In this document: positions 8,423 through 39,812 of the stretch, piece by piece
How positions within the stretch are numbered: position 1 is the first letter of the stretch
How the letters are laid out: every line of letters starts with the position of its first letter
From: Bacteroidaceae bacterium
Lineage (GTDB): Bacteria > Bacteroidota > Bacteroidia > Bacteroidales > Bacteroidaceae
NCBI GenBank assembly: GCA_017379075.1
Contig: JAFNXL010000016.1
Location: forward strand, 1 to 44,810
Direction of reading: 5' to 3'
DNA: 44,810 nt
Notes under the pieces: model-generated
Told to the model about the DNA's origin: nothing
The model's input: only the letters and a program-made list of their open reading frames with translations
Database searches by the model: none
Translations under genes and position numbers: made by a program

Positions 8423-9376
8423 TCAGTATATCCGTCTGGCTATTTCATAAATGCTGTCCACAGCACTTATGGTGTAGAAATGCAGGCTGGGCACGCCATG
8501 CTTCATCAGCTCGCGGCATTGTTCCACACTCCACTCTATTCCCACTTGCTTCACCTCTTCATCCGTCTTGCACTTCACCAACTCACGGTAAAACGGTTCG
8601 GGCAAATCGCAATGGAAGGTTTTGGGCACTACGGTCAGCTGATTCAAACGAGACAACGGCTTGATGCCGGGGATGATGGGAACTTCAATACCCAAAGCGC
8701 GGGCACGTTCCACAAAGGAAAGATATTTCTGATTGTCATAGAATAGCTGAGTTACGGCATATTCTGCTCCCAAATCCACCTTTTGCTTGAGCACCTGAAT
8801 ATCACTTTCCAGACAGGCGGCTTCCTCATGTTTCTCGGGATAGCATGCCACGCCGTAGCGAAAGCGGTTGCCGGGCACCTTTATGGGAGAGCCGTCAGCA
8901 AAGAACCCATCATTGAAGCGGTTGATCTGTTCTATCAATTCCGTAGCATGGGCAGGGCCATCGCCAGTGGGCATGAATGTGGCGTCCTCCTTGGCTTTGT
9001 CGCCACGGAGTACCAACAAATCGCTTATGCCCAGAAACTGGAGGTCTATGAGCATATATTCCAGATCCTCTCGGTCGTTTCCACTGCAAACAATATGCGG
9101 CACCACCGGAATATCATATTTCTTCTGTATGGCAGCGGCAATCGCGATGGTGCCAGGACGACGGCGCACCCGCTGACGCTGCATCAGTCCATTCTCCAGT
9201 TCATGATAGACGTATTCACTGCGATGGGTGGTGATGTTGATATATTTGGGGCTGAATTCCTTCAGACGGTCTATGGTACGGAACAGGGCAGCCGTTCCGT
9301 TTCCTTTCAGCGGCGGCAACACTTCAAAGGAGAAAGCCGTTCCGCCGCCATTGGATATGATGTCTGTTATGTTCAT
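8423..9376 (-). CDS. metF: 5,10-methylenetetrahydrofolate reductase
   Basis: FAD enzyme that reduces 5,10-methylene-THF to 5-methyl-THF for methionine synthesis. The 317-residue protein shows the start FSFEVLPP (catalytic Glu), the TTHRS loop, the DLLVLRGDK motif and AVTQLFYD typical of MetF. Length is normal for a bacterial enzyme. Its start codon overlaps the stop of the upstream GH51 gene as ATGA (9373-9376), so it may be translated by reinitiation after the arabinofuranosidase. That is an unusual partner for a folate enzyme. Confidence 0.96.
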   Translation of the reverse strand: MNITDIISNGGGTAFSFEVLPPLKGNGTAALFRTIDRLKEFSPKYINITTHRSEYVYHELENGLMQRQRVRRRPGTIAIAAAIQKKYDIPVVPHIVCSGNDREDLEYMLIDLQFLGISDLLVLRGDKAKEDATFMPTGDGPAHATELIEQINRFNDGFFADGSPIKVPGNRFRYGVACYPEKHEEAACLESDIQVLKQKVDLGAEYAVTQLFYDNQKYLSFVERARALGIEVPIIPGIKPLSRLNQLTVVPKTFHCDLPEPFYRELVKCKTDEEVKQVGIEWSVEQCRELMKHGVPSLHFYTISAVDSIYEIARRIY

Positions 9377-27594: not shown

Positions 27595-27731
27595 TGTCAA
27601 AAATGCAAAAATATCTGGTGTAACTGAATGACACATTTCAGGGTTTTCAGATTTGCACTATGTTTTATTTAACAGTAAATTCAAAGTCGCAAAAATTCGC
27701 CCGTGAAGTGCGTATATTTACGTTTTCTTTG

Positions 27732-27739
27732 TATATTTG
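27732..27739 (+). promoter_or_regulatory. -7 element immediately before the AraC-type gene
   Basis: TATATTTG matches TAnnTTTG but ends only four bases before the likely ATG at 27744. Transcription would then begin at or next to the start codon, implying a leaderless message, unless the start is elsewhere. Confidence 0.5.
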
Positions 27740-27743
27740 CAAT

Positions 27744-28562
27744 ATGATTCAAGAAGAATTTAAGTTTTATAAACCATGTAAATTGTTACAACCCTATGTA
27801 AGGTATTATTGGGTGTTCAGTAGTAATCAAATGCTAAAGACCTATACATTTCCTATTGGATGCTCCCAAATCATCTTTCACAAGCGTACTCCCCTTTATG
27901 TGCCAGAATTGGATACAACGCAACATAAACTGACAATCAGTGGACAAGTCAACTTCTCCTCACATCTGCAAGCTGATGATGACATTGAGATGATTGTTGT
28001 GGTATTCTATCCTCATACAATAAACTTGTTTCTGGATACCCCAGCCTCATCTTTTTACAACAAAGAAGTCTCTGGTTACGACATTGAGGATAAGCATTTG
28101 GTCGAATTGGCAAAACAAGTGTTCGAATGCTGTGATAACAACCAATGCGTTGATCTCATCGAAAGGTGGCTTTTGTCTCGTTTGTCAATAAGACCATACG
28201 AAACAACATACAGAGTAAGGCGCATGACTGCCGCAATAGAGCAATTGTGTGCTGCTCCACAAACTCTTGTAACAGATTTGGCTTCCACTTGTTGCCTGTG
28301 CAAGAAACAATTCGAGCGGGAGTTTTGTTTGCATGTAGGAATGAATCCCAAAGAATATTCCCGCATCGTCCGCTTCCAAAAGACTCTGAAGCAGATGCAG
28401 CATCAACGGAGCAAAATCAATCAGGCAGATTTGGCATACACAAACGGCTATGCCGACCAGTCTCACCTCATAAGGGAATTCAAGAAGTTGTGTGGATACA
28501 CTCCTTTATCGTTGCTTGAAGTCGCAACACCATATTCCGACTTGTTTACCATTCCCATATAG
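27744..28562 (+). CDS. AraC-family transcriptional regulator
   Basis: A 272-residue regulator. The N-terminal half (MIQEEFKFYKPCKLLQPYVRYYW...) resembles the DUF6597/AraC sensory domain, a beta-barrel beginning with a PHxxLxPYVxxYW-like motif. The C-terminal part (about residues 155-260) has the two helix-turn-helix units, including LVTDLASTCCLCKKQFEREF and the second motif DLAYTNGYADQSHLIREFKKLCGYTP. An upstream in-frame ATG at 27660 is possible but would include the promoter element. Base composition is more AT-rich than the flanking genes. The CAT-like gene 277 bases downstream, beyond a MITE-like element, may be its target. Confidence 0.9.
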   Translation: MIQEEFKFYKPCKLLQPYVRYYWVFSSNQMLKTYTFPIGCSQIIFHKRTPLYVPELDTTQHKLTISGQVNFSSHLQADDDIEMIVVVFYPHTINLFLDTPASSFYNKEVSGYDIEDKHLVELAKQVFECCDNNQCVDLIERWLLSRLSIRPYETTYRVRRMTAAIEQLCAAPQTLVTDLASTCCLCKKQFEREFCLHVGMNPKEYSRIVRFQKTLKQMQHQRSKINQADLAYTNGYADQSHLIREFKKLCGYTPLSLLEVATPYSDLFTIPI

Positions 28563-28563
28563 A

Positions 28564-28758
28564 TGGGTTATTCTGAAAATTCTGGGATTATGTTTTTACC
28601 TGTTCTGGTGTTCTCTGTTTCGGTCGCTTTTCGTCCCTTTCGGTGTCATTTTGTCAAGTCTCATCAGTCACATAGCCCGCTATGTTCCTTCTTCAACTTA
28701 CAAAAGCACACACGAAAAAAGAACGAGAATCAACTCGACATAATTTTTAGAACACCCC
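28564..28758 (-). mobile_element. MITE-like element, copy 1 (195 bases)
   Basis: This noncoding element starts one base after the AraC stop codon and matches, in inverted orientation, the element at 38837-39030. Its ends are imperfect inverted repeats: TGGGTTATTCTGAAAATT at the left and the complement of GGGGTGTTCTAAAAATT at the right. The core 28645-28709 is identical to copy 2 at 64 of 65 bases and holds the dyad ACATAGC-n2-GCTATGT. No transposase is encoded, so movement would need an enzyme supplied elsewhere. Flanking AGA on both sides could be a short target duplication. Confidence 0.8.
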
Positions 28759-28798
28759 AGAAGTCTCGTTTGTTCTATCTTGTACTGGATATTCTTCC

Positions 28799-28806
28799 TA
28801 CTTTTG
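28799..28806 (+). promoter_or_regulatory. -7 element for the CAT-like gene
   Basis: TACTTTTG fits TAnnTTTG 33 bases before the CAT-like start. A TTTG lies 26 bases upstream of it (28769-28772), somewhat further than the usual 19-21. The promoter is outside the MITE-like element, so the gene does not need read-through from AraC. Confidence 0.5.
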
Positions 28807-28839
28807 CAGCTACATTTATGAACCAAATGAATAAAAAGT

Positions 28840-29460
28840 ATGAAAGAAGTAAATCCTAAGGAAACAAGCCGAGCTCAACAATTTGAGATTTGGAAAAACG
28901 CTCCAAATCCAATGCTTACCTTTGTCAGAAAGATGGATGTAACCAATCTTGTAAGGACAAGCAAAAAAAGACATCTGAAGTTCAATATGCTTTTGGACTA
29001 TTGTATCGGCAAAGCCGCCATCGGCCAGAAGGAGTTCTATTTGTTGCCCGTAGGAAAGAAGTTGATGCAGTTTGACAACATTGCCATAAACACAATGGTA
29101 AAGAACCACCTCGGGGAAGTAAGTTCTTGCGACATTGCGTTCAACGGTGATTTTGATTGCTACAGCCATGATTATCTGAAGTACACGTCAGAGGTTGCGC
29201 AAAGTTGTGTCGACCGAGATTTGTCAGAAGAGTATATGGTTATTGGCACCTCAGCCGTCATTGACACGGAATTGGAATTTGCAGGAGGGATGTACAGCGG
29301 AATATACAACAACCCTTTCATTATATGGGGACGCTATTCGAGGCATTTCTTCAGATACTACCTGAACATCTCTTTCCAGTTCCACCACTCTCAGATGGAT
29401 GGGGCACATGCGGCACAATTCCTAAAGAACATTCAGAAAGAGATTGACAAGATAAGATAA
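28840..29460 (+). CDS. Chloramphenicol-acetyltransferase-like O-acetyltransferase
   Basis: A 206-residue protein of the trimeric CAT fold, which moves acetyl from acetyl-CoA to a hydroxyl. The catalytic motif HxxxD is H183-SQM-D187 in FQFHHSQMDGAHAAQFL, close to the usual C-terminal position. The N-terminal stretch NPMLTFVRKMDVTNL resembles the start of CAT-family proteins. Length is just under the 213-219 typical of type A enzymes. Whether it inactivates chloramphenicol or modifies another molecule cannot be told; many CAT-like proteins do not confer resistance. AT-rich composition and neighbouring repeats suggest acquisition together with the AraC gene. Confidence 0.85.
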   Translation: MKEVNPKETSRAQQFEIWKNAPNPMLTFVRKMDVTNLVRTSKKRHLKFNMLLDYCIGKAAIGQKEFYLLPVGKKLMQFDNIAINTMVKNHLGEVSSCDIAFNGDFDCYSHDYLKYTSEVAQSCVDRDLSEEYMVIGTSAVIDTELEFAGGMYSGIYNNPFIIWGRYSRHFFRYYLNISFQFHHSQMDGAHAAQFLKNIQKEIDKIR

Positions 29461-29760
29461 GACAGACAGATTTTTACATCACTATGTAAACGGATTTACA
29501 CTTCTATGTAAACGCACTTACATAACTATGTAAATCCATTTACACTTAAGAGTAAATGCGTTTACAATTCAATGAAAGCGAGTTGTAAACGCAAACCACT
29601 ATTTGTTAGTTAGTTATACCATCCCCGAAACAACAATGAGTATTCTTTATTTCATCCTGTTTGAATGATTTCCCTCACATTGTGACTATAAGCATAAAAT
29701 GAGGTTTTGCCCCAAAAAAAACATTGTATCTACTGACAAAACGAAAGGAAAGGCAAGTAT
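29461..29760. other. Gap after the CAT-like gene
   Basis: No gene seen. The first 120 bases are the 22-base iteron array described separately. The rest is AT-rich unique sequence with no clear stem-loop or promoter. Confidence 0.6.
29473..29592. repeat. 22-base iteron array of TTTACA...TGTAAA dyads
   Basis: Units begin at 29473, 29495, 29517, 29539 and 29561, with a partial sixth at 29583. The period is exactly 22 in every step. Units 1-3 carry TTTACA-N6-TGTAAA (unit 3 begins CTTACA); unit 4 has TTTACA-N6-AGTAAA; unit 5 is decayed (TTTACA-N6-TGAAAG). The six middle bases and the four linker bases vary, while the arms are kept. A period near two helical turns puts all sites on one face of DNA. 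This looks like a multimeric protein-binding site, not a CRISPR array. Confidence 0.88.
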
Positions 29761-30759
29761 TCACTTGACGGTGCGAATGGCAGCCTCAACACGACGAAGA
29801 AGGTCGCGTTTCTCTGTTGAGGGAGAATAGACAAACCCCTCTGCCACAAGCACTTCGTTGGCGGCTGTATCAATCCGCGCCAGGGAAACAAAAGGTCCAC
29901 CCAATGCACCGTTCCTCATCTGCCACAGACCGCGCACTTCCTGCACAACACCTCCGTTGAGTTTACGTAAACGACTGGTCAGCAAGGGAAGTCCGTCCTC
30001 GCGAACCGTTTCCATCCATTGGTCTGGCTGGCTTCCGGGGATATTGGCCTGCATAACAGAATCGCGCATAGCTGCAAAATGAAGGGGTTGAAGCACATCG
30101 TTGCCGTCCCACGGATAAGTGTAGACCACCACATTGAGGTCCTTTTCGTTAAGATTGGAACCAGCCCATAAAAAATTATTTCCTCGCTTGGCGGCACGGA
30201 TTTCCTCGGGAGCAAAAATGGTACGCCCCATAACGGCCTTCAATTCAGAATGGGCCTTTTGGCTATACTTTTGCTTCAACTGAGCCACACGCATTTCCAG
30301 TTGGGCATCGGCAATCACATCGCATATATAATCCTGATTTCTTCCGATGAATTCGGCCAATTCTTTCACATTTGCCGCCTTTACCGTCACTTCTACTTGA
30401 GGTTTTGCAATGACATCATAGGAAACACCCAGGATGGGCTTGGCTGCCTGGGCATCCAATTTCACAAACAACTTGCTATGGAAAGTGGTATAAGTCTGGG
30501 TATAGTATGAAGAGAAAATGCGCGTTACACGGAAATGGCTTTCCAACTGAGGCAATCCGGGAATTGGGCCTTCCAATACCTGTTTAAGGGTGTCGGCCAC
30601 CGTGCTTTCCCACACAGCCTTGTCCACCACCAACAGCAACTCGCTGGGCAAGCCCTTGCTCTTTACTATGCGTGGAGCCGCCTTCTGTTCTTCCTTGCAC
30701 GCTGCAAACATGAGGCAAAGTGCGCCCAAGAGGCAAAGCATTTTCTTCATTCCATTCAT
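29761..30759 (-). CDS. DUF4837-family lipoprotein
   Basis: A 332-residue predicted lipoprotein of a Bacteroidetes-restricted family with no known function. With the start at 30759, lipobox Cys21 follows CLMFAA. A start at 30750 (MKKMLCLL) would give a shorter but equally good signal. The mature chain has the family's feature SKGLPSELLLVVDKAVWES (about residues 35-53) and a late GLWQMRNGALGGPFVS strand. It lies downstream of the tRNA-Met gene on the same strand, behind a terminator, so it must have its own promoter or depend on read-through. Its end faces the iteron-bearing gap. Confidence 0.87.
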   Translation of the reverse strand: MNGMKKMLCLLGALCLMFAACKEEQKAAPRIVKSKGLPSELLLVVDKAVWESTVADTLKQVLEGPIPGLPQLESHFRVTRIFSSYYTQTYTTFHSKLFVKLDAQAAKPILGVSYDVIAKPQVEVTVKAANVKELAEFIGRNQDYICDVIADAQLEMRVAQLKQKYSQKAHSELKAVMGRTIFAPEEIRAAKRGNNFLWAGSNLNEKDLNVVVYTYPWDGNDVLQPLHFAAMRDSVMQANIPGSQPDQWMETVREDGLPLLTSRLRKLNGGVVQEVRGLWQMRNGALGGPFVSLARIDTAANEVLVAEGFVYSPSTEKRDLLRRVEAAIRTVK

Positions 30760-30785
30760 TTCATGTATTGTTTTTATATGAATAT

Positions 30786-30825
30786 TTAAAAACAAAAATC
30801 CCGTAAATCAATGACTTACGGGATT
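30786..30825 (-). terminator. Intrinsic terminator after tRNA-Met
   Basis: A perfect 10-base stem, AATCCCGTAA with TTACGGGATT, surrounds a 9-base loop. On the minus strand it is followed by TTTTTGTTTTT. It begins 8 bases after the tRNA 3' end. Confidence 0.9.
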
Positions 30826-30832
30826 CATCCTG

Positions 30833-30906
30833 TAGCGGGAATGGGACTTGAACCCATGACCTTCGGATTATGAATCCGACGCTCTAACCAGCTGAGCTAT
30901 CCCGCC
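30833..30906 (-). tRNA. tRNA-Met (anticodon CAT, elongator type)
   Basis: On the minus strand a 74-base cloverleaf can be folded. The acceptor pairs GGCGGGA with TCCCGCT (first pair G-U). The D arm is GCTC-AGCTGGTTA-GAGC, the anticodon stem TCGGA/TCCGA encloses loop TTCATAA, and the T arm is ATGGG-TTCAAGT-CCCAT, with discriminator A. The anticodon stem lacks the three G-C pairs of initiator tRNA, so this is elongator Met; tRNA-Ile2 (lysidine-modified CAT) is a less likely alternative. CCA is not encoded, as usual in Bacteroidetes. Confidence 0.93.
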
Positions 30907-30925
30907 ATCCTTCAGAATTGCGCTG

Positions 30926-30957
30926 CAAAGGTAGCGCCTTTTTCTGAAACGTGCAAA
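30926..30957 (-). promoter_or_regulatory. Promoter of tRNA-Met
   Basis: Minus-strand TTTG (30957-30954), a 20-base spacer and TACCTTTG (30933-30926) match the Bacteroidetes -33/-7 consensus exactly, 19 bases before the tRNA 5' end. Confidence 0.85.
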
Positions 30958-30995
30958 TAAAAGCGGAAAAATTTCTTCGAGAAAGGTTATTTTTG

Positions 30996-31003
30996 TACCT
31001 TTG
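30996..31003 (+). promoter_or_regulatory. -7 element of the LptF/G gene
   Basis: TACCTTTG with a TTTC 20 bases upstream (30972-30975) gives a near-consensus promoter about 25 bases before the chosen ATG at 31029. It argues against the earlier in-frame ATG at 30951. Confidence 0.7.
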
Positions 31004-31028
31004 CAGTCAGATTCACATATGCGCGCAC

Positions 31029-32942
31029 ATGAGATTTATTAAGAAGTTGGACATATTCATTCTGAAAACCTATCTGCAATTGTTTGCGGGTACGTTCTTC
31101 ATCTGCCTTTTCATCTTCATGATGCAGTTTATGTGGCGATATGTGGAAGAGCTCATCGGAAAGGGACTCAGTTGGCAAGTATTAGTCCAATTCTTCTATT
31201 ATTCCGGCCTAACGCTGGTTCCGCTTTCGTTACCATTGGCAGTATTGCTGGCATCGCTGATATCTTTCGGCAACCTGGGCGAGCGTTATGAGCTGCTCTC
31301 CATGAAGGCCGCCGGCATTCCCCTGGTCCGCATTCTGCAACCCGTATGTCTTTTTGCCATTCTGGTATGCGGAGGAAGCTTCTATTTCCAGAACAAGGTG
31401 GCGCCCGAAGCCACCAAACAGCTTGCCACGCTGGTATGGAGCATGAAGCAGAAATCGCCAGAACTGGAAATCCCCGAAGGAATCTTCTACAACGAGATTC
31501 CCGGATACAATCTCTTTGTGGAGCAGAAAGACCCGGAAACAGGCATGTTGTATGGTGTGATGATTTACAGCAACACCGGCGGATATGACGATGCCGAAAT
31601 CGTATTGGCGGACAGCGCACGTCTGCAAAGCACCGAAGACAAGATGCACCTCATGCTCACCTTGTATCAGGGAGAACGTTTCCGTAATATGGACACCAAG
31701 AGTGGAGACATGCTGCGCGCCAATGTGCCTTATATGCGTGAGTCGTTCATCAGCGAGGTGGACATCATCCCCTTTGACGGAAACTTCAACATCATGGATG
31801 CCAACCTGTTCTCGGGCAACGCACAGACCAAGAACCTCACCGAGATTAACCGTGGCATAGACTCGCTTGCCCATGTAGTGGACAGCACTGGACACGCCAC
31901 CTACAATACCATGCAGGCTTCCATGCTGATGAAAAAGTTGCCCGACGGACATCCAGACTCGATACAGGTTGTGGAAAAGGCATTGGCAGAGGACGCAGTT
32001 CCCTTTGACACGCTCTATGCCGCGCTGAGCGACGACATGAAAAGCAAGGCATGGAAAAACGCCACCACCAAGGCGCAGAACATGCAGTCGGAATGCGATT
32101 TCCGAAAGATGCTCACAGAAGACCTGAACCGTACCTTCCGCCGCCACCGCATGGAAGCGCACAAGAAGTTCACCCTCTCGCTGGCCTGCCTGCTGTTCTT
32201 CTTCATCGGCGCACCGCTGGGCGCCATCATCCGCAAGGGCGGACTGGGATTGCCCGTGGTCATCAGTGTGGTCATATTCATTTTCTACTACATTGTGAAC
32301 GTGGGTAGCGAAAAGATGGCGAAGACGGGCGAATGGAACATCGTATCCGGCATCTGGCTCAGCACAATGGTGTTGTTGCCCATCGGTATTTTCCTTACCA
32401 ACCGCGCCAACAAGGATTCGGTGGTGTTCAACATAGAGGGCTACCGCGCCTTCTTCCAGAAGGTTTTAGGACTGCGCGCCAAACGCCGCCTCAACCGCAA
32501 GGAAGTTATCATCAACGAACCGAACTACCTGCAAATTACGCAAGACCTGGAACAGCTTTCGGCCGACTGTGCCGCCTATATCAAGCGTGCGCGTCTGCAC
32601 CTTATCCCCAATTATTGGAAACTGTTCTTCCGTTACCATCAGGACAAGGTTGTAGTAGGCATAAGCGAAAGACTGGAATCTTTGGTTGAACAACTGCATA
32701 ACAGCCGAGATGCTGTAATCCTGGCACGCATCAATGCACTGCCCATTCTGGTGCCGGACGCCCACACACGCCCCTTCAGCAATCCGCGCAGGAACATTGC
32801 CGCAGGTGTGTTCTTCCCATTGGGGCTGCTGCTCTTCTTCAGAGTGTGGCGCTACCGCTTGAGACTCTGGAAAGACATGCAGGAAATACAGAAACTGAGT
32901 AAACAAATCATTGACAGAATAAGAGACAAAAAATATGAGTGA
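31029..32942 (+). CDS. LptF/LptG-family lipopolysaccharide export permease
   Basis: Inner-membrane permease that moves LPS into the Lpt bridge with the LptB ATPase. The 637-residue protein starts [19 protein letters not shown], typical for the family. It has three membrane helices before a large periplasmic beta-jellyroll (about residues 130-385), then helices resuming at [25 protein letters not shown] (about 384-408). The C-terminal 150 residues are an extra soluble domain followed by another hydrophobic segment ([14 protein letters not shown]), longer than proteobacterial LptF/G. Bacteroidetes often have fused or extended versions. The stop overlaps the ribBA start by 8 bases. Confidence 0.92.
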
Positions 32943-34140
32943 CGACATTGCACTGAGTACCATCGAGGACGCGCTCGAGGACTTCAAACAGGGTAAGTTT
33001 GTTATAGTTGTGGACGATGAAGACCGCGAGAACGAAGGAGACTTCATCACCGCTGCCGAGCTGATTACACCAGAGAAGGTAAACTTCATGCTCAAGCACG
33101 GCCGAGGCGTACTTTGCGCCCCCATCACCATGAGCCGTGCCAAGGAACTGGAACTGGAACACCAGGTACAAGACAACACCAGCATGCTGGGCACGCCGTT
33201 TACCGTTACGGTAGACCTGTTGGAAGGCTGTACCACCGGAGTGAGCACACATGACCGTGCCGCCACCATCCGCGCGCTGGCCAACCCCAACTCAAAACCA
33301 AAGGATTTCGGACGTCCCGGACACATAAATCCCCTCTATGCCCAGGACAAGGGCGTATTGCGCAGAGCCGGACACACCGAGGCGGCAATTGACCTGGCAC
33401 GCCTTTGCGGCATGCAGCCCGCAGCAGCGCTGATCGAGATTCTCAATGCCGACGGCACCATGGCACGCATGCCCCAGTTGAAGAAAGTGGCGGCAGAACA
33501 CGGCATGAAGATCATTACCATCAAGGATCTGATCGCTTACCGCATGAAGCAAGAATCGTTGGTAGAGCGCGGAGAAGAAGTTGACCTGCCCACGGCATAC
33601 GGCCACTTCCGCATCATCCCCTTCCGTCAGAAAAGCACCGGGCTTGAGCACGTTGCCGTATTCAAGGGCGAATGGACACCCGAAGAACCTATTCTTGTGC
33701 GCATGCACAGCAGCTGCATGACGGGCGACATCTTCGGAAGCATGCGTTGCGACTGTGGAGAACAGCTCCACAAAGCCATGCAGCTTATTGAGAAAGAAGG
33801 TCGTGGTGTAATCATCTACCTCAGCCAGGAAGGACGCGGTATCGGACTGATGAACAAGATTGCCGCCTACAAATTGCAAGAACAAGGCGACGACACCGTA
33901 GATGCCAACATTCATTTGGGATTCCAACCCGACGAACGCGACTATGGCGTAGGGGCACAGATTCTGAACCAGCTCAATGTGGGCAAGATACGACTCATCA
34001 CCAACAATCCCGTCAAGCGTGTGGGATTGGAAGGATACGGACTGGAGATTGTGGAGAATGTCCCCATCGTCATTGAGCCGAACCCTTACAATCTGCAGTA
34101 CTTGCAAACCAAAAAGGTTAGAATGGGACACAAGCTGTAA
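32935..34140 (+). CDS. ribBA: Bifunctional DHBP synthase / GTP cyclohydrolase II
   Basis: Makes both riboflavin precursors: 3,4-dihydroxy-2-butanone 4-phosphate from ribulose 5-phosphate, and the pyrimidine from GTP. In 401 residues, the N-terminal RibB half has the acidic loop [11 protein letters not shown] (about 26-36) and [10 protein letters not shown] (about 142). The RibA half has zinc ligands in [21 protein letters not shown] (about 257-280) and the late [10 protein letters not shown] motif. It begins inside the permease gene (8-base overlap), so the two are co-translated. No FMN riboswitch was seen. Confidence 0.96.
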
Positions 34141-34211
34141 GCGACATCCCTATACATTATTATATATAATATAGAAGAAGAAGAAGAAACAACAAATCAC
34201 ATTTACAGAAT

Positions 34212-35405
34212 ATGCAGACACTTTCCGACAGACTGAACAGACTGACACCGAGCGCAACCCTGGCCATGAGCCAGCGCAGCGCAGAGCTTAAGGCACAAGG
34301 TGTGGACGTAATCAACATGAGCGTGGGCGAACCCGACTTCAACACCCCCGACCACATCAAGGAAGCAGCCATACGCGCCGTACAGGAAAACTACTCCCGC
34401 TACAGCCCCGTTCCCGGCTATCCCGCACTGAAGCAGGCCATTGTAAACAAACTCAAGAACGAGAACGGATTGGAATACGCTCCTTCCCAAATTCTCTGTT
34501 CTAACGGAGCCAAGCAGAGCGTATGCAATGTCATCATGGCAATCGTGGACAAGGGAGATGAGGTCATTATCCCTGCCCCCTACTGGGTTTCTTACCCCCA
34601 AATGGTGAAGCTGGCCGACGGTGAACCCGTCTACATCGAAGCCACCATTGAGCAAGACTTCAAGATTACCCCCGAACAGTTGGAAGCTGCCATCACTCCC
34701 CGCACCCGCGCCATCATCCTCTGCTCGCCCAGCAACCCCACCGGAAGTGTCTATACCCGTGAGGAACTGGAAGCGCTGAAGAATGTACTTGTAAAGCACG
34801 AGCGTGTCATCGTCATTGCCGATGAAATCTATGAACATATCAGCTACATGGGAAGCCACGCCAGCATTGCCCAGTTTGCAGACATCAAGGACCGTGTTGT
34901 TGTCATCAATGGTGTGAGCAAGGCATACGCCATGACTGGATGGCGCATCGGATTCATTGCCGGTCCCGAATGGATTGTGAAAGGATGCAACAAGCTGCAA
35001 GGCCAGTACACCAGCGGTCCCTGTTCCGTTAGCCAGAAGGCAGCAGAAGAAGCCTTTGCCGGTCCGCAGGAATGTGTGGAGGAAATGCGTCAGGCCTTCG
35101 AACGCCGTCGCGACCTGATTGTACGTCTGGCCAAGGAAATTCCCGGACTGGAAGTCAACTGCCCCCAGGGTGCGTTCTATCTGTTCCCCAAGTGCAGCAG
35201 TTTCTTTGGCAAGCGTTGCGGTGACCGCGTAATCAACACCAGCACCGACCTGGCCATGTATCTGCTTGAAGTGGGTCATGTGGCAACTGTGGGAGGAGAC
35301 GACTTCGGCAGCCCCGAATGCTTCCGCATGAGCTATGCCACCAGCGATGAGAACATCATCGAAGCCATGCGCCGCATCCGCGAAGCTTTGGCACAATTGG
35401 TATAA
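34212..35405 (+). CDS. aspC: Class I aspartate aminotransferase
   Basis: PLP enzyme interchanging aspartate/oxaloacetate and glutamate/2-oxoglutarate. The 397-residue protein has the class I features MSVGEPDFNTP (about 37-47), the CSPSNPTGSVY loop (about 172), and the PLP lysine K237 in SKAYAMTGWRIGF. The late RMSYATSDENI motif includes the substrate-carboxylate arginine. It lies 71 bases after ribBA, across an AT dyad, and ends before a terminator. Aromatic or other amino acids might also be used. Confidence 0.94.
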   Translation: MQTLSDRLNRLTPSATLAMSQRSAELKAQGVDVINMSVGEPDFNTPDHIKEAAIRAVQENYSRYSPVPGYPALKQAIVNKLKNENGLEYAPSQILCSNGAKQSVCNVIMAIVDKGDEVIIPAPYWVSYPQMVKLADGEPVYIEATIEQDFKITPEQLEAAITPRTRAIILCSPSNPTGSVYTREELEALKNVLVKHERVIVIADEIYEHISYMGSHASIAQFADIKDRVVVINGVSKAYAMTGWRIGFIAGPEWIVKGCNKLQGQYTSGPCSVSQKAAEEAFAGPQECVEEMRQAFERRRDLIVRLAKEIPGLEVNCPQGAFYLFPKCSSFFGKRCGDRVINTSTDLAMYLLEVGHVATVGGDDFGSPECFRMSYATSDENIIEAMRRIREALAQLV

Positions 35406-35429
35406 GCAAGAGATAAAAGCAAGAAAAGC

Positions 35430-35477
35430 AGAAGGAGGAACGCCACTTGACGTTCCTCCTTCTCTTTTCTTTTTTCT
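35430..35477 (+). terminator. Terminator after the aminotransferase gene
   Basis: AGAAGGAGGAACG and CGTTCCTCCTTCT form a perfect 13-base stem with an 8-base loop, followed by CTTTTCTTTTTT. It also separates this gene from the converging ferredoxin gene. Confidence 0.92.
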
Positions 35478-35489
35478 TGTGTCTGCTAA

Positions 35490-35654
35490 TTACAGGTTGA
35501 TGGCACCGCTGGGGCACGCATCAGCGCAAGTACCGCATTCGGTGCACTGATCGGGATCAATTGAATACTTGTCACCTTCAGAGATAGCGCCTACGGGGCA
35601 CTCATCGATACATGTGCCGCAAGCAACACAATCGTCATTGATTACATAAGCCAT
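35490..35654 (-). CDS. Small two-[4Fe-4S] ferredoxin
   Basis: A 54-residue ferredoxin that carries low-potential electrons for anaerobic enzymes such as pyruvate:ferredoxin oxidoreductase. The reading frame MAYVINDDCVACGTCIDECP... has two classical clusters: C9-x2-C12-x2-C15-x3-C19-P and C37-x2-C40-x2-C43-x3-C47-P. The two halves are internally similar, each followed by a GAI strand. Many clostridial and Bacteroidetes ferredoxins have this size. It faces the terminator of the aminotransferase gene. Confidence 0.95.
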   Translation of the reverse strand: MAYVINDDCVACGTCIDECPVGAISEGDKYSIDPDQCTECGTCADACPSGAINL

Positions 35655-35876
35655 AGTAGTAATGTTTTGTTTGGTTTATAATTAAAATTTTCTCTTACTA
35701 TTATTGCAAAGGTAATTATTTTTAATGACACAAAGCCTTTTTTTGCCACAAAATATTGTCTGTATATAACAAAATGGACAAGCGGATGCCGTTTTTATAG
35801 AAAAAGAAACGTCGGAATGGGGCTATAGGTGGCTATAAACACAATAAAAAAGCCGGATAGTGCGTTTATATAAGGT
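35655..35876. other. Divergent gap between ferredoxin and PorT-like genes
   Basis: AT-rich 222 bases. Besides the ferredoxin promoter it has two GGCTATA repeats (35821 and 35831 area) near the PorT-like gene, of unknown meaning. No clear TAnnTTTG was found on the plus strand. Confidence 0.5.
35707..35714 (-). promoter_or_regulatory. -7 element of the ferredoxin gene
   Basis: Reads TACCTTTG on the minus strand, 53 bases before the ferredoxin ATG. A TTTG lies 16 bases upstream of it (35734-35731), slightly close. Confidence 0.65.
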
Positions 35877-36596
35877 ATGAAGCGCATTATACTCTTGTCT
35901 GCCTTATGCCTGCTCTTTACAGGACTGGGATGCCGCCATGTCATGGCGCAACCCAGGAAGCTTCAATACCGCCCTTATATTGACGAGCGGAAATTCCACT
36001 ATGGCTTTCTGTTTGGCTTCAACATCCAGGACATGGAACTTTCAAACACAGGATACGCAAACCCCGAAACAGGAGAACAATGGTATGCCGATGTGGACAA
36101 TTATAATCCAGGCTTCAGCGTGGGTGTTTTAGGCGAGATGAAGCTGAACAAGCATCTTTCTCTCCGCCTCAGCCCCACAATGCACTTCGGCCAGAAGCAC
36201 ATCCTTTTCCATGAACAGCTTTCGGGGCGAGACACCACACAGAACGTCAAGAGTTCGTACATTTCCATTCCGCTCGACCTGAAAGTGGCCGCACCGCGCT
36301 ACAATAACTTCCGCCCGTATGTCATTGCCGGCCTAAATCCCATGATTGACCTTACGGCACGCAAGCGCCATGCACTGCGCACAAAGCCAATGGACTGTTA
36401 TCTGGAAGTGGGAATGGGATGCGACATCTATCTGCCTTTCTTCAAACTTATCCCCGAACTGAAATTCTGCTTCGGCCTGGCAGATATTCTGCAGAAAGAC
36501 CGTTCGGACCTTATCGACACCTCACTGCTCAAATACACGGAGGCCGTGGACAAGGCACGTTCCAAGATGATTGTGCTTACGCTTTACTTTGAATAA
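35877..36596 (+). CDS. porT: PorT/SprT-like outer-membrane beta-barrel protein
   Basis: A 239-residue secreted beta-barrel with a signal peptide (cleaved near VMA-QPR, residue 25). The start of the mature chain, KFHYGFLFGFNIQDMEL, followed by PGFSVGVLGEMKLNKHLSLRLSPTM-type strands and the late LIPELKFCFGLADIL, matches the PorT/SprT protein of the type IX secretion system. Other outer-membrane beta-barrel (OMP_b-brl_2) proteins have a similar general pattern, so the T9SS assignment is probable. Together with the PorE-like protein it suggests a T9SS in this organism, although it sits alone here. It converges with the 5'-nucleotidase pair (13-base overlap of ends). Confidence 0.78.
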   Translation: MKRIILLSALCLLFTGLGCRHVMAQPRKLQYRPYIDERKFHYGFLFGFNIQDMELSNTGYANPETGEQWYADVDNYNPGFSVGVLGEMKLNKHLSLRLSPTMHFGQKHILFHEQLSGRDTTQNVKSSYISIPLDLKVAAPRYNNFRPYVIAGLNPMIDLTARKRHALRTKPMDCYLEVGMGCDIYLPFFKLIPELKFCFGLADILQKDRSDLIDTSLLKYTEAVDKARSKMIVLTLYFE

Positions 36597-37438
36597 GGCT
36601 CAAGCACAAACGTCATTGTGCCCACAAACCTTCCATGCTTGCCCATTTGGTTGCAGGGCACATCCTCTCCCTTGCTGTTCTTCACAAACTTTGGTTGGTC
36701 AAACATGAAATGCGTATGACCACCCAACAATACATCTATGCCGTGCGTCTTGCGCACAAAGCCGATGTCATAATCTTCGCCTTCTGCCCATCCCAAATGG
36801 CTCAGACAGACGATAAAGTCGCACTTCTCTTCATTGCGCAACTTGTCCACAATGGGTTGCACCGCCTTGGCCGGTGTACGGTAACGTACTGAGCCATAGC
36901 TTTGCCCGGACACCAGTCCCTCAAGTCTCGGGCTCACGCCCACCACTCCCACACGCAGGCCGTTGCATTCCATAATCGCATAAGGTTGCACCAACCCTTC
37001 GCATGGCGTGCCAGAGAAATCGTAATTGCTGCAAACAAACGGAAAATCTGCCATCCGTATCAGACGCGCCAGATTCTCCAGTCCGCAGTCAAACTCATGA
37101 TTGCCAATGGCGCACGCATCATAACCCATAAGATTCATCAGTTTCACCTCCGCCTCGCCGCGGAAAATATTGTAATAGAGCGAACCCTGGGAAAAGTCGC
37201 CACAATCAAAAAGCATCATATCTTCCGGATGTGCCCGGCGTAACTGACTTACCAAGGCGGTCCGGCGTACAAAGCCGCCCTTGTCCGCCAATGAAGAATC
37301 TGCATGATTGGGCGAGATGGGTTCCACACACGAATGGGTATCATTCGTATGCACAAGAAAAAGAGTCTTTTCCTGCGCTACAGCAATGCTGGCACACCAC
37401 AACATCAGTATAATCAGCGAAAGTTTGCTTTTCATCAT
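36584..37438 (-). CDS. 5'-nucleotidase N-terminal (metallophosphatase) half as a separate protein
   Basis: A 284-residue secreted phosphatase with a signal peptide (cleaved near VA-QEK, residue 22). It carries the metal motifs of UshA/NucA-type enzymes: HTNDTHS (about 31), CGDFSQG (about 79), GNHEFDCG (about 111), LSHLGWAEGED (about 213) and GGHTHFM (about 239). It stops where the substrate-binding domain of full-length 5'-nucleotidase would begin. That domain is encoded by the gene just upstream (4-base ATGA overlap). This division is seen in Bacteroidetes and is not a frameshift, since each half has its own signal peptide. Confidence 0.92.
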   Translation of the reverse strand: MMKSKLSLIILMLWCASIAVAQEKTLFLVHTNDTHSCVEPISPNHADSSLADKGGFVRRTALVSQLRRAHPEDMMLFDCGDFSQGSLYYNIFRGEAEVKLMNLMGYDACAIGNHEFDCGLENLARLIRMADFPFVCSNYDFSGTPCEGLVQPYAIMECNGLRVGVVGVSPRLEGLVSGQSYGSVRYRTPAKAVQPIVDKLRNEEKCDFIVCLSHLGWAEGEDYDIGFVRKTHGIDVLLGGHTHFMFDQPKFVKNSKGEDVPCNQMGKHGRFVGTMTFVLEPYSK

Positions 37439-38181
37439 TTCTTCATTACAATACGTCCTTCAATTCGACTGTCTATCACACGGTTCTTCACCACACTCTC
37501 CATCATTATCTCCCGCACGGACATGCCGGTCTCGTGCCTGCGTTTATGTTTCTTTAGAGCGTATAGGCGGTCGTTCCCCTCGGCCAGATAATCCAGTGTG
37601 GCGATTAGGTAAGTACGCTTCTTGTCAATCGCTTTTCCTCCAATCCGCACCTGCAACACATTTCCTTCGGCATCCATCTCCATCCTCATCTCTCGGCTCA
37701 CCGCCTCCCCTTTCACTGCTGCAATGTTCCGCATCAGTTCCAGCACATCTTTCCCCTTCATTTCCAGCACAACCAGATTGTTCTCGAAGGGAGAAATCTG
37801 CAATATGTCACCCCTGCGCACAATCCCTTCTGGCATGCGGCTGCGTAGGCTTCCCACGTTGGCCAGTCCAAAATCGGCCTTGGGACCACCAGCACAGGTA
37901 CTGCCTTCCACAAGCACATCAGCCACCCAGTTGCCCAACAGGCTCTCCGGCTTACCGGCTGACATGGCCACTCTGCTCATGCCCAGCACTGGACTCACCT
38001 CTTTGTCCACACCATCTTTATACGGTTTCACAACCATCAAGGCAACTGAATCGGGCACGGCATCCAGAGCCCGCGTCACCTCCAACCGCTGCGCCGAAAC
38101 ATACTTAACCCTGTACCGCTGTGCCATTGTCACAAACGGAAATAACATGAAATACAAGCAGATAATAAAACAATTCTTCAT
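37435..38181 (-). CDS. 5'-nucleotidase C-terminal (substrate-binding) half as a separate protein
   Basis: A 248-residue secreted protein with a signal peptide (cleaved near TMA-QRY, residue 20). It matches the 5_nucleotid_C domain: ESLLGNWVADVL (about 79), ADFGLANVGSLRSRMPEG (about 101-118), the ISPFENNLVVLEMKG strand, and YLIATLDYLAEGND. It has no metal-binding residues of its own, so it must act with the phosphatase half encoded next. The C-terminal half is encoded first, the reverse of the order in fused enzymes. A consensus promoter precedes it. Confidence 0.9.
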   Translation of the reverse strand: MKNCFIICLYFMLFPFVTMAQRYRVKYVSAQRLEVTRALDAVPDSVALMVVKPYKDGVDKEVSPVLGMSRVAMSAGKPESLLGNWVADVLVEGSTCAGGPKADFGLANVGSLRSRMPEGIVRRGDILQISPFENNLVVLEMKGKDVLELMRNIAAVKGEAVSREMRMEMDAEGNVLQVRIGGKAIDKKRTYLIATLDYLAEGNDRLYALKKHKRRHETGMSVREIMMESVVKNRVIDSRIEGRIVMKK

Positions 38182-38202
38182 ACCTACAGACTAAAAACGG
38201 CT

Positions 38203-38234
38203 CAAAATTACATCTTTTTCGGCAAAAATACAAA
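38203..38234 (-). promoter_or_regulatory. Promoter of the split 5'-nucleotidase operon
   Basis: Minus-strand TTTG (38234-38231), a 20-base spacer and TAATTTTG (38210-38203) match the -33/-7 consensus. The -7 is 21 bases before the start codon at 38181. Confidence 0.75.
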
Positions 38235-38274
38235 ATAATGAGGCTGCTAGTATGGCAGAACAACTAATTTTTCG

Positions 38275-38282
38275 TACCTTTG
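38275..38282 (+). promoter_or_regulatory. -7 element of rplS
   Basis: TACCTTTG about 95 bases before the rplS ATG. This long leader contrasts with the short leaders of most other genes here and makes room for the structure at 38295-38337. Confidence 0.65.
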
Positions 38283-38294
38283 CAGCCGCTTTCC

Positions 38295-38337
38295 CGTGGG
38301 TCGCTGGCAGGAAGAAGAGAGACCTGTTATGCCCACG
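38295..38337 (+). promoter_or_regulatory. Candidate L19 leader RNA structure
   Basis: In the rplS leader, CGTGGG (38295-38300) pairs with CCCACG (38332-38337). Inside, GCAGG (38307-38311) pairs with CCTGT (38323-38327, one G-U) around a purine-rich loop. Ribosomal-protein leaders that let L19 repress its own synthesis are known in several phyla. The role here is inferred from position and pairing only. Confidence 0.45.
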
Positions 38338-38376
38338 AGTGATCGACAAAACAATTTTATAATCCAAAATCAAAAA

Positions 38377-38745
38377 ATGGCTGATTTAATTAAAATTGCT
38401 GAAGAAGCATTTGCTACTGGCAAAAGCCACCCCTCATTCAAGGCTGGTGACACCATTACCGTAGCGTACAAGATTGTCGAAGGTAACAAGGAGCGTATAC
38501 AGTTGTATCGCGGTGTTGTTATCAAGATTTCAGGTCACGGAGACAAGAAGCGCTTTACCGTGCGCAAGATGTCTGGTACCGTTGGTGTTGAGCGTATTTT
38601 CCCCTTGGAAAGCCCCAACATTGACAGCATTGTAGTGAACAAGGTAGGTAAGGTACGTCGTGCCAAGTTGTACTACCTGCGTAAGCTCACCGGTAAGAAG
38701 GCTCGCATTGCAGAAAAGCGCACCATCATCAAGAAGGAAGCTTAA
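38377..38745 (+). CDS. rplS: Ribosomal protein L19
   Basis: Large-subunit protein near the 30S-50S interface. It has 122 residues, with the core [20 protein letters not shown] (about 21-40), [26 protein letters not shown] and [10 protein letters not shown], all diagnostic of L19. The start at 38377 ([11 protein letters not shown]) is chosen over an in-frame ATG at 38296, because the family begins here and the intervening stretch forms a leader structure. Codon use is biased toward GGT, GTT and AAG, as expected for a highly expressed gene. A terminator follows. Confidence 0.98.
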
Positions 38746-38775
38746 TCGCAACGCTGAAAAAGAGCGTTCCAGTTT

Positions 38776-38810
38776 AAAAGGCATTGGGTTCTCCCATTGC
38801 CTTTTTTGTT
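38776..38810 (+). terminator. Intrinsic terminator after rplS
   Basis: AAAAGGCA pairs with TGCCTTTT, and inside it TGGG pairs with CCCA around a short loop (TTCT). The stem runs into TTTTTTGTTT. Confidence 0.88.
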
Positions 38811-38836
38811 TAACACCAGACGGGAAAATCTTTACA

Positions 38837-39030
38837 GGGGTGTTCTATAAATTATGTCGTGGTGATTTTTGAACTTCTTTCGGATGTGCTTTTGTAAGTT
38901 GAAAAAGGAACATAGCGGGCTATGTGACTGATGAGACTTGACAAAATGACGCCGAAAAAGTCAAAAAGCGGCCGAAACTCACTTTGCTAGATTTGGAAAA
39001 AACTCAAAACCAGAATTTATAGAACACCCC
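38837..39030 (+). mobile_element. MITE-like element, copy 2 (194 bases)
   Basis: Bounded by perfect 18-base inverted repeats: AGGGGTGTTCTATAAATT at 38836-38853 and its complement at 39014-39031. Taking the ends as GGGG...CCCC, the flanks are TACA on both sides, a possible 4-base target duplication. The core 38886-38950 matches copy 1 at 64 of 65 bases and includes the dyad ACATAGC-n2-GCTATGT; outside the core the two copies differ at many positions. There is no coding capacity for a transposase. It lies in the gap between rplS and the PAP2 gene. Confidence 0.85.
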
Positions 39031-39068
39031 TACACAGATTATCCCACAATGTTACTTCTTGTATTCTT

Positions 39069-39812
39069 CTAATAATTCTTCAACACCTCCTGATGCAGAC
39101 GGGCACGGCGCTTTTGGAACAGCTTGCGGTTGTTGAAGATGGCATCCGTGGCCCAATATGAGAGTTCGGCCGCGAGAATGCCCACTGCAGCCCCCACTAC
39201 TACGTCGCTGGCATAGTGCTTGTTGTTGAGGATGCGCAACGCACCGGTTGCCGTGGCTACGGAATATCCGGCTATGGGAATCCATACGCTTTTGTGGCCA
39301 TATTCGTGGCTGAGAAGCGTGGCTCCGAGAAAGGCCGTGGCGGTGTGTCCGGAAGGGAAGCCTGCCCCTTCGCCATTAGGGCGGGTGCGGTCTATGCTGT
39401 ACTTTATGCCGCCCACCGCTGCCATCATCATGGCACCGGCCATCGCATCGGTGGCCAATACTTGCCAGCGGTTACGGCTATGACCCTGCACGCCGCCCAG
39501 CGACATGCCGAGCTGTGCGGCAAGAGGTGCGAAGCGCAGATAATCGTCGACCTTGGTGCGGAAACTGGGCATTCCATCCATTACTCTGCGGCTTATGGCC
39601 TTGTCTGCCGGCCAAACGGCAAGTCCCACCGCCGCAACGGGCGCTGCCACGCAACAGGAATGGTGCAGGCGATTGAGATTAAATTCCTTACGGTCCATCT
39701 TCACCGTGAGCGGAGCCTTGTTCTCTTTATAGAGGATTGTGGAGTCGCCTTGTGCCTTGGCGTTGAATGCGCACAGCAGGAAGCAGAAAAATATGATTAC
39801 GGATTTCGTCAT
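39069..39812 (-). CDS. PAP2-family membrane/periplasmic phosphatase
   Basis: A 247-residue phosphatidic-acid-phosphatase-type enzyme, with a start at 39812 giving the signal peptide MTKSVIIFFCFLLCAFNAKAQ. A start at 39836 is also in frame but would leave a leader of only about 10 bases. The three family motifs are present: KYSIDRTRP (about 135-143), PSGHTA (about 151-156) and RILNNKHYASD (about 184-194, catalytic His and Asp). Several hydrophobic stretches lie around them. Possible substrates are lipid phosphates such as undecaprenyl pyrophosphate or lipid A phosphates; not determinable here. Confidence 0.9.
   Translation of the reverse strand: MTKSVIIFFCFLLCAFNAKAQGDSTILYKENKAPLTVKMDRKEFNLNRLHHSCCVAAPVAAVGLAVWPADKAISRRVMDGMPSFRTKVDDYLRFAPLAAQLGMSLGGVQGHSRNRWQVLATDAMAGAMMMAAVGGIKYSIDRTRPNGEGAGFPSGHTATAFLGATLLSHEYGHKSVWIPIAGYSVATATGALRILNNKHYASDVVVGAAVGILAAELSYWATDAIFNNRKLFQKRRARLHQEVLKNY

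Follow-up and report, generated by a model that had tools for sequence, protein, structure and literature searches.

Hairpin elements with differing ends and a common, structurally constrained tip in the Bacteroidales: a possible signal for mobilisation

The locus considered here raises a simple question, namely why a short mobile element should keep its centre more strictly than its ends. It lies in a stretch of 44,810 nucleotides (contig JAFNXL010000016.1, from a Bacteroidaceae bacterium), hereafter the window, and consists of two elements in opposite orientation. In a plain miniature inverted-repeat transposable element (MITE) the ends are the common and constrained part, whereas in the elements described here the ends differ by family, and the centre is common and structurally constrained. 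Our results suggest that this core is the apex of a folded single strand common to families with different ends, and not a double-stranded protein site. We hold it to be an even call that these elements represent a new Bacteroidales superfamily of non-autonomous, MITE-like hairpin elements, in which the structured tip is a cis signal for mobilisation.

A previous reading of the letters alone (the sequence-only reading) had reported two inverted elements 10 kb apart with a nearly invariant core. Both observations were borne out; each element measures 194 bases, copy 1 starting at 28565, since position 28564 belongs to the flank. The core at 28645-28709 and the reverse complement of 38886-38950 differ at one position in 65, whereas alongside it the ungapped match between the copies is 54/80 for the left part and 39/49 for the right part. 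The dyad described within the core, ACATAGCnnGCTATGT, is exact in both copies (28670-28685 and 38910-38925); taken alone, and with up to three mismatches allowed, it is no rarer than chance (2 found, 1.29 expected). The similarity of the two elements is far beyond chance. The perfect terminal repeats of copy 2, with TACA on both sides, were also confirmed, 17 bp lying inside the element and an A/T being contributed by the TACA duplications. In copy 1 the left end has decayed (GGGTTATTCTGAAAATT), and the flanks form an imperfect duplication. The genome from which the window comes (G000; 3.0 Mb in 106 contigs) contains 29 matches to copy 2 at E <= 1; twelve of these, both window copies included, align over at least 177 of the 194 bases, and the rest are partial, split or end-only.

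When one strand of the whole element is folded, it forms a single long hairpin and the conserved core is the end of this hairpin. Copy 1 folded as RNA reaches -57.0 kcal/mol (z -4.5, with none of 200 shuffles as good), and folded as DNA it reaches -23.8 (z -2.5, with 2 of 200 shuffles as good). The tip, with the sense-strand sequence GAAGGAGCATAGCnnGCTATGTGACTGA, takes the form of an apical stem placed on two tandem G-A mismatch motifs. The inner stem is followed by GAAGGAG against TGACTGA, and then by CATAGC-nn-GCTATG; those bases of GAAGGAG/TGACTGA that are outside Watson-Crick pairing make up two G-A/A-G tandems, with an A-U and a G-C pair between them and a G-U pair after them. Such G-A tandems form sheared pairs. 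The general design found in the different families is an apical stem CRTAGC-nn-GCTAYG on GAnGGAG/TGACnGA, where the G-A/A-G tandems surround one or two Watson-Crick pairs. All four families whose tips were folded beat all of their 200 shuffles, with z from -4.5 to -9.6. In two variants (L261 and L262) one pair between the tandems is gone from both strands together, giving GAGGAG/TGACGA and GAGGAA/TGACGA, and in two others (L258 and L266) the loop is larger and the stem is retained. A few elements have the tip replaced by a short palindrome-like stretch such as TTTGGCCACAGCCAAAG (L099 in G000:C17, also L107 and L017). Two other readings of the tip were rejected: the tip of the window's family contains AAGGAG...ATGTGA, a start beside a stop, but this hidden reading frame is not conserved, because variants with CGTAGC/GCTACG lack the ATG and those with TGTAGC have it displaced or lack it; likewise, the hammerhead-like CTGATGA of the window's family is not retained by other families.

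The fold is supported by covariation. In an ungapped alignment of 32 tips, 87% of the pairs are standard, compared with 25-40% in slid controls. In an alignment of 107 matches from 100 sources (93 distinct rows), which was fitted to the covariance model and is therefore biased towards it, 96% of the cells are paired and changes on both sides are seen in 12 of the 14 pairs; the covariation score of 0.634, versus 0.205 in shuffles, was reached by none of 500 shuffles. The G and A of both mismatch motifs are retained in 88-93 of the 93 rows. Among the pairs of the tip, G-T is far more frequent than A-C (137 versus 10, with 73 of the 137 coming from one position). The arms outside the modelled stretch show the same tendency (260 G-T versus 108 A-C in 94 elements, with more G-T in 60 and more A-C in 15); here the alignment scoring treats G-T and A-C alike, and a p-value is not to be taken literally, as related elements are not independent and some ends are misplaced. 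Since G-T outnumbers A-C, a folded single strand is indicated, and the data suggest that the sense strand is the one that must fold. The folded form as RNA fits best, single-stranded DNA being the alternative.

The tip is not confined to the window. The sequence-only reading had staked its interpretation on the core and on copies with the same ends occurring elsewhere, and both are present in the same genome and in other Bacteroidales. A tip pattern with one mismatch allowed matched 15 of 139 genomes of the genus, and a reversed control pattern matched none; in the matching genomes the tip crowns elements with other arms and ends. With a covariance model built from 32 tips, the tip was found in 102 of 399 sampled genomes of the family, distributed over 18 of 30 genera, and 15 of these 102 hold at least 15 scored places. 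In a sample of the order it was found in 12 of 393 genomes, of which ten represent six families other than that of the window, with several weak matches (approx. 30-34 bits), and in a phylum-wide sample in 2 of 395, both from the same family as the window. These counts are probably low because strict filters were used and the E-values are rough. Named relatives that carry the core are the Bacteroidaceae bacteria RGIG9105 and RGIG7333, and Prevotella sp. RGIG972, all of them metagenome-assembled genomes; the sources of these assemblies are the gut of water deer, water buffalo and cattle. Concerning a phage or plasmid origin, which was considered and rejected, copy 2 had no match in phages, copy 1 had none in plasmids, and the L262 element had none in either. 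Exact-pattern scans of viral contigs gave no match for the window's core and one for the general tip; the latter (L282, positions 8650-8687 of an IMG/VR contig of 12639 bases) could be on a viral or a bacterial contig.

That the elements are non-autonomous transposable elements, as had been proposed, was upheld by their inverted ends, 4-bp duplications, an empty site and many copies, together with the fact that no transposase was found. The empty site is in the related genome RGIG7333 (G072), where the flanks of copy 2 (48654-49278 and 49309-50045) are only 30 bases apart; at 49279-49308 this genome has a single TACA where the window reads TACA-element-TACA. The perfect ends of copy 2, the TACA duplication and the empty site therefore indicate a real insertion. 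Elements of the superfamily measure approx. 170-200 bp and are long imperfect inverted repeats, whose outer ends and flank duplications vary by family, some ends in the list of elements having been misplaced by the script. Exact 4-bp duplications flank 31 of the 78 elements with defined ends, versus 7.8 expected from random re-pairing of flanks, and 30 of these 31 belong to families with GTTCT or GTCCT in the ends. Where the ends are of the GTGATG-, GTGACG-, GTAATGG- or GAGCCTG-type, 6 of 8 elements have 3-bp duplications; when all 78 elements are taken together, 3-bp flank matches show no excess (7 versus 10.5 by chance). Among 20 AAGTAGGTG-type elements, a hand count gives 17 that are bordered by TA at either end, a candidate TA duplication. 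Since ends and flank duplications vary in this way between families, different families are probably cut by different transposases. Within the window's family (G000, G072 and G082) the variable bases near the ends are GGGATG, GGGTGG, GGGGTG, GGGACG or GGTATG; these bases apparently tend to agree between both ends of one element, sometimes with T-G (GGGATG...CGTCCC).

In two genomes from one genus of the family, G434 and G312, end sites alone number 243 and 315, respectively. In approx. 0.86 Mb sampled from the G434 assembly (4,308,663 bases) for end pairs and open reading frames (ORFs), 28 end pairs were found (one place counted twice), all of them with the tip; the same sample also contained unpaired ends and a few tips without paired ends. 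Additional modules occur in some elements. Several of them, among them L036, L049, L111, L112 and L114, contain a second hairpin module (AACTTGTTTGAGATTTTCCGAGCGG and neighbours), which is also present as tandem copies 73-74 bp apart. A third module of approx. 80 bp (ACAAAGATTG...CAATCTTCG) is located inside the tip, between GAAGGAG and the apical stem, in three related genomes (L014, L103, L104 and L113; also L120 and L122). Double-hairpin elements (L164, of 324 bp, and L257) carry one tip per orientation or strand inside common ends.

The way in which the tip changes suggests where it may be needed. The earlier proposal that the core is held more strictly than the ends, the reverse of a plain MITE, agrees with the tip being common across families and with the comparison of paralogous copies: when 38 copies of the window's family are compared in 568 non-orthologous pairs, the arms differ by 15.3% and the tip by 6.8%. 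In contrast, in seven orthologous pairs with similar flanks on both sides (one of which, L171/L173, is possibly from near-duplicate contigs), the arms showed 24 differences in 1035 positions and the tip 8 in 308 (Fisher p 0.83). An earlier comparison with other limits, superseded by this one, gave 44/1125 for the arms and 9/308 for the tip, again in 7 pairs, the pair L008/L042 being doubtful. With these modest numbers, it is shown that a resident tip decays freely, and that the parents of further copies had intact tips. Given that the tip decays like the arms in orthologs but differs less between separate copies, selection appears to act on the spreading copies, which would place the function of the tip in spreading and not in a service to the host. 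In L099 of G000 the tip has been replaced, at a site that by eye is orthologous to the intact L033 of RGIG7333.

A mechanism can be outlined from these observations. The folded tip, whether it forms in a transcript of the element or in single-stranded DNA exposed at replication or excision, would be a cis-acting recognition signal; a common trans-acting factor would recognise it and would be needed for efficient mobilisation, family-specific transposases would cut the ends, and copies that lose the tip would stay in place and not spread. In its most specific form, which we put forward only tentatively, a common Bacteroidales factor reads one folded tip (RNA or single-stranded DNA, with its two tandem G-A motifs) and mobilises or licenses elements whose ends suit different transposases, that is, the tip would be a shared second transposition signal beyond the ends. 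Several points weigh against this proposal. A transposase or another partner bearing these ends was not found, either for the window's family (exact end patterns) or for two other families (the G434 sample of approx. 0.86 Mb). Of the 31 exact 4-bp duplications, 15 read TTAA or TATA; these are self-complementary and could instead represent longer ends. The rows of alignment A3 were found by a structure model, which favours paired rows, and the ortholog test comprises 7 pairs and 32 differences only. G-T is also the mildest mismatch in DNA, and because of this the excess of G-T does not separate RNA from single-stranded DNA. Close co-adaptation with a host factor might predict tip variants that follow the host genome rather than the ends. 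This was not found, as mean tip identity is 0.834 for 447 pairs from the same genome with different ends and 0.896 for 983 pairs from different genomes with the same ends, a comparison in which end detection is noisy and a few false rows were admitted. Finally, the orientation of the elements relative to genes is biased weakly, which is at most a weak hint of a role of the RNA in place.

Such a role, in which resident copies are transcribed as 3'-untranslated regions or small RNAs and a host RNA-binding protein or RNase binds the tip and so stabilises or silences the transcripts nearby, is rather unlikely, even though the strand-specific fold with its tolerance of G-U would suit it. Among 146 elements placed against longest-ORF calls, 131 are between ORFs. 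Co-directional genes flank 54 of these in sense and 33 in antisense orientation, convergent genes 28 and divergent genes 16; another 11 elements are inside an ORF and 4 at an edge. Together with the co-directional elements of G434 (10 sense, 7 antisense), this gives 64 sense versus 40 antisense (p 0.024, with related copies removed only in part). Both orientations are common, and over the first 0.5 Mb of G434 they look evenly mixed relative to replication (by eye, with the origin position assumed). The alike decay of tip and arms in orthologs and the replaced tip of L099 also speak against an in-place role, as does the lack of a match to an Rfam family: with the Rfam 15 covariance models the window matches one tRNA only, and 15 loci with tips gave three matches at E <= 1, all far below the family cut-offs. 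Of the functions that the sequence-only reading had offered for the core, a function of its own is retained and a resident small RNA is weakly supported, whereas the folded single strand speaks against a double-stranded protein site. That site, of a regulator or a nucleoid protein and centred on the dyad, would account for the perfect short CATAGC-nn-GCTATG and for the strong sequence conservation around it. Nevertheless, GAAGGAG and TGACTGA do not form an inverted repeat, and yet their positions outside the mismatches covary (one pair is A-U in 58 rows, G-U in 9 and G-C in 20), G-T is far above A-C, inner stems differ between families and remain paired, and L261 and L262 lose one pair from both strands together; we consider this site quite improbable.

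A further possibility is that the tip makes a long palindrome tolerable, its geometry slowing cruciform extrusion or hairpin cleavage by the SbcCD nuclease, an enzyme that cleaves hairpins, so that only tip-bearing elements survive. The elements are indeed near-palindromes of up to 200 bp, and the constraint acts on one strand and on the fold; however, any central asymmetry would suffice for this purpose, and the fixed G-A motifs and nearly invariant sequence in many genera call for specific recognition, which makes this explanation improbable. Least probable of all, and by now very hard to sustain, is that the elements are plain MITEs and that recent copying or gene conversion within one genome is the only reason why the core looks conserved. 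It is true that tip identity is highest (mean 0.950) between copies that share both their genome and their ends, and conversion between inverted copies is possible, but the tip is also found, with compensatory pair changes, in other genera and families, and on unlike arms, and homogenisation within one genome can produce neither covariation across genera nor the same tip on unlike arms.

An autonomous relative was sought through the ends. With exact end patterns, and among the end sites listed, no transposase is enclosed by end pairs in G000, G072 and G082, and no autonomous partner with the ends of the window's family was found over the 139 genomes; thus, the full-length element with a transposase and the same ends that had been envisaged was not found. 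In the genome of the window and in its relatives these patterns gave pairs a few hundred bases apart, as well as neighbouring elements separated by 0.3-2 kb. Three such stretches between elements carry host-like ORFs: the one in G082:C64 encodes an aldo/keto reductase, and the ORFs of those in G072:C26 and G072:C14 were judged from their first 70 residues. No evident transposase was present among the ORFs inside unpaired ends in the G434 sample, as judged from the first 60 residues without a library search, and none was seen for the families with GTGATG- or GAGCCTG-type ends.

The proposal that recombination between the two copies could invert the 10 kb between them found no backing in RGIG7333. 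This genome carries the ortholog of copy 1 (L037; C25:39029-39222), and its C25:38700-39500 differs from window 28236-29036, on the same strand and with copy 1 included, at 34 of 801 bases. Copy 2 is absent from G072; its site there shares contig and strand with copy 1 and lies 10.06 kb from it, against a spacing of 10.08 kb in the window. Since order, orientation and spacing agree with the window, this one genome shows no sign of inversion. Regarding the neighbourhood, copy 1 begins 2 bases past the stop codon of the ORF 27660-28562, and copy 2 is preceded by an ORF that ends at 38745 and has a terminator-like stem behind it; on the other side of copy 2, an opposite-strand ORF has its lower end at 39069. 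A tRNA gene is located between the two elements (30833-30906, minus strand). The coordinates of the features are collected in Table 1.

Table 1. Positions of the two elements and their parts in the window, and of the second hairpin module in related genomes
Feature	Position	Strand	Remarks
Element copy 1	28565-28758	-	194 bp, long imperfect hairpin; sense strand of the tip is minus
Copy 1, decayed inverted end	28565-28581		opposite 28742-28758
Copy 1, 44-nt tip (apex module and inner stem)	28656-28699	-	covariance model R1, 71.0 bits; element fold
Copy 1, 28-nt apex GAAGGAACATAGCGGGCTATGTGACTGA	28664-28691	-	apical stem on two tandem G-A motifs
Copy 1, intact inverted end	28742-28758		flanks AGAT/AGAA
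TACA target duplication, left of copy 2	38833-38836		single TACA at the G072 empty site
Element copy 2	38837-39030	+	194 bp, subfamily with GGGGTGTTCTATAAATT ends
Copy 2, left inverted end	38837-38853		17 bp, perfect
Copy 2, 44-nt tip	38896-38939	+	covariance model R1, 67.0 bits
Copy 2, 28-nt apex AAAGGAACATAGCGGGCTATGTGACTGA	38904-38931	+	
Copy 2, right inverted end	39014-39030		17 bp, perfect
TACA target duplication, right of copy 2	39031-39034		single TACA at the G072 empty site
Second hairpin module	G082:C68:15668-15911		L136, L138, L144, L145
Second hairpin module	G072:C19:9570-9668		
Second hairpin module	G082:C26:21094-21192		

Several known systems resemble these elements in part. As in other bacterial MITEs, they are short and gene-free, have inverted ends and short target duplications, occur in many copies and fold when transcribed. 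In the window this takes the form of 194 bp without a coding gene, inverted ends, a target duplication with its empty site, and several copies per genome; the usual trait that the ends are the most conserved part, which is not a strict definition of a MITE, is not seen. The nearest in layout is ERIC, which has a conserved central inverted repeat; MITEAba12 is reportedly another bacterial MITE. RUP, NEMIS and ERIC have been listed among the bacterial MITEs (PMC3733652). In Porphyromonas gingivalis, BrickBuilt, MITE239, MITE700 and MITEPgRS are MITEs, some of them transcribed by read-through, and like the present elements they are Bacteroidetes MITEs, from a related genus; BrickBuilt differs in its internal 23-nt repeats and its ends, and the excerpted text describes no common structured tip (PMC4596501).

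Recognition of a folded single strand has precedents. RAYTs recognise REP repeats in this form, and integron attC sites are imperfect palindromes recognised strand-specifically as a folded single strand through unpaired bases; attC sites serve cassette recombination, in contrast with the short flank duplications found here. REP/BIME repeats, associated with RAYT or TIRYT tyrosine transposases, are dispersed imperfect palindromes, according to an excerpted description (PMC3733652). The REP palindrome measures 20-40 bp, whereas the present elements are of 170-200 bp, with family-specific ends and short flank duplications, and no conserved GTAG or CGTC tag, as expected of REP, is present in the 44-column tip alignment. 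IS5-like transposition (IS1031 and kin) is characterised by a 3-bp TNA duplication and GAGnCTGTTT-type ends; it was considered for the families with GTGATG- and GAGCCTG-type ends, whose 3-bp duplications are those given above. With regard to RNA, Bacteroides thetaiotaomicron has the multicopy FopS small RNAs, and a second paralogous small RNA family beside transposases and invertases; they share with a transcribed tip the trait of being multicopy non-coding RNAs in the Bacteroidaceae, bound in that case by the RNA-binding protein RbpB, and are set apart by their description, in the excerpted text, as seed-bearing regulators and not hairpin transposons (PMC11697453). No such shared tip was found in the literature searched, which comprised open-licence papers only and is not proof of novelty.

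Taken together, our results suggest MITE-like elements with a shared, structurally constrained tip in place of shared ends. MITEs have been described by their ends; here the ends change and the folded centre stays. The covariance model of the tip provides a marker for a repeat superfamily carried by roughly one in four of the genomes sampled from the family, and such repeats matter for short-read assembly, for the annotation of intergenic regions and for RNA maps. If the tip is needed for spreading, the transposition of bacterial MITEs would have a structural signal beyond the ends, and the search for a protein that binds the tip would become practical.

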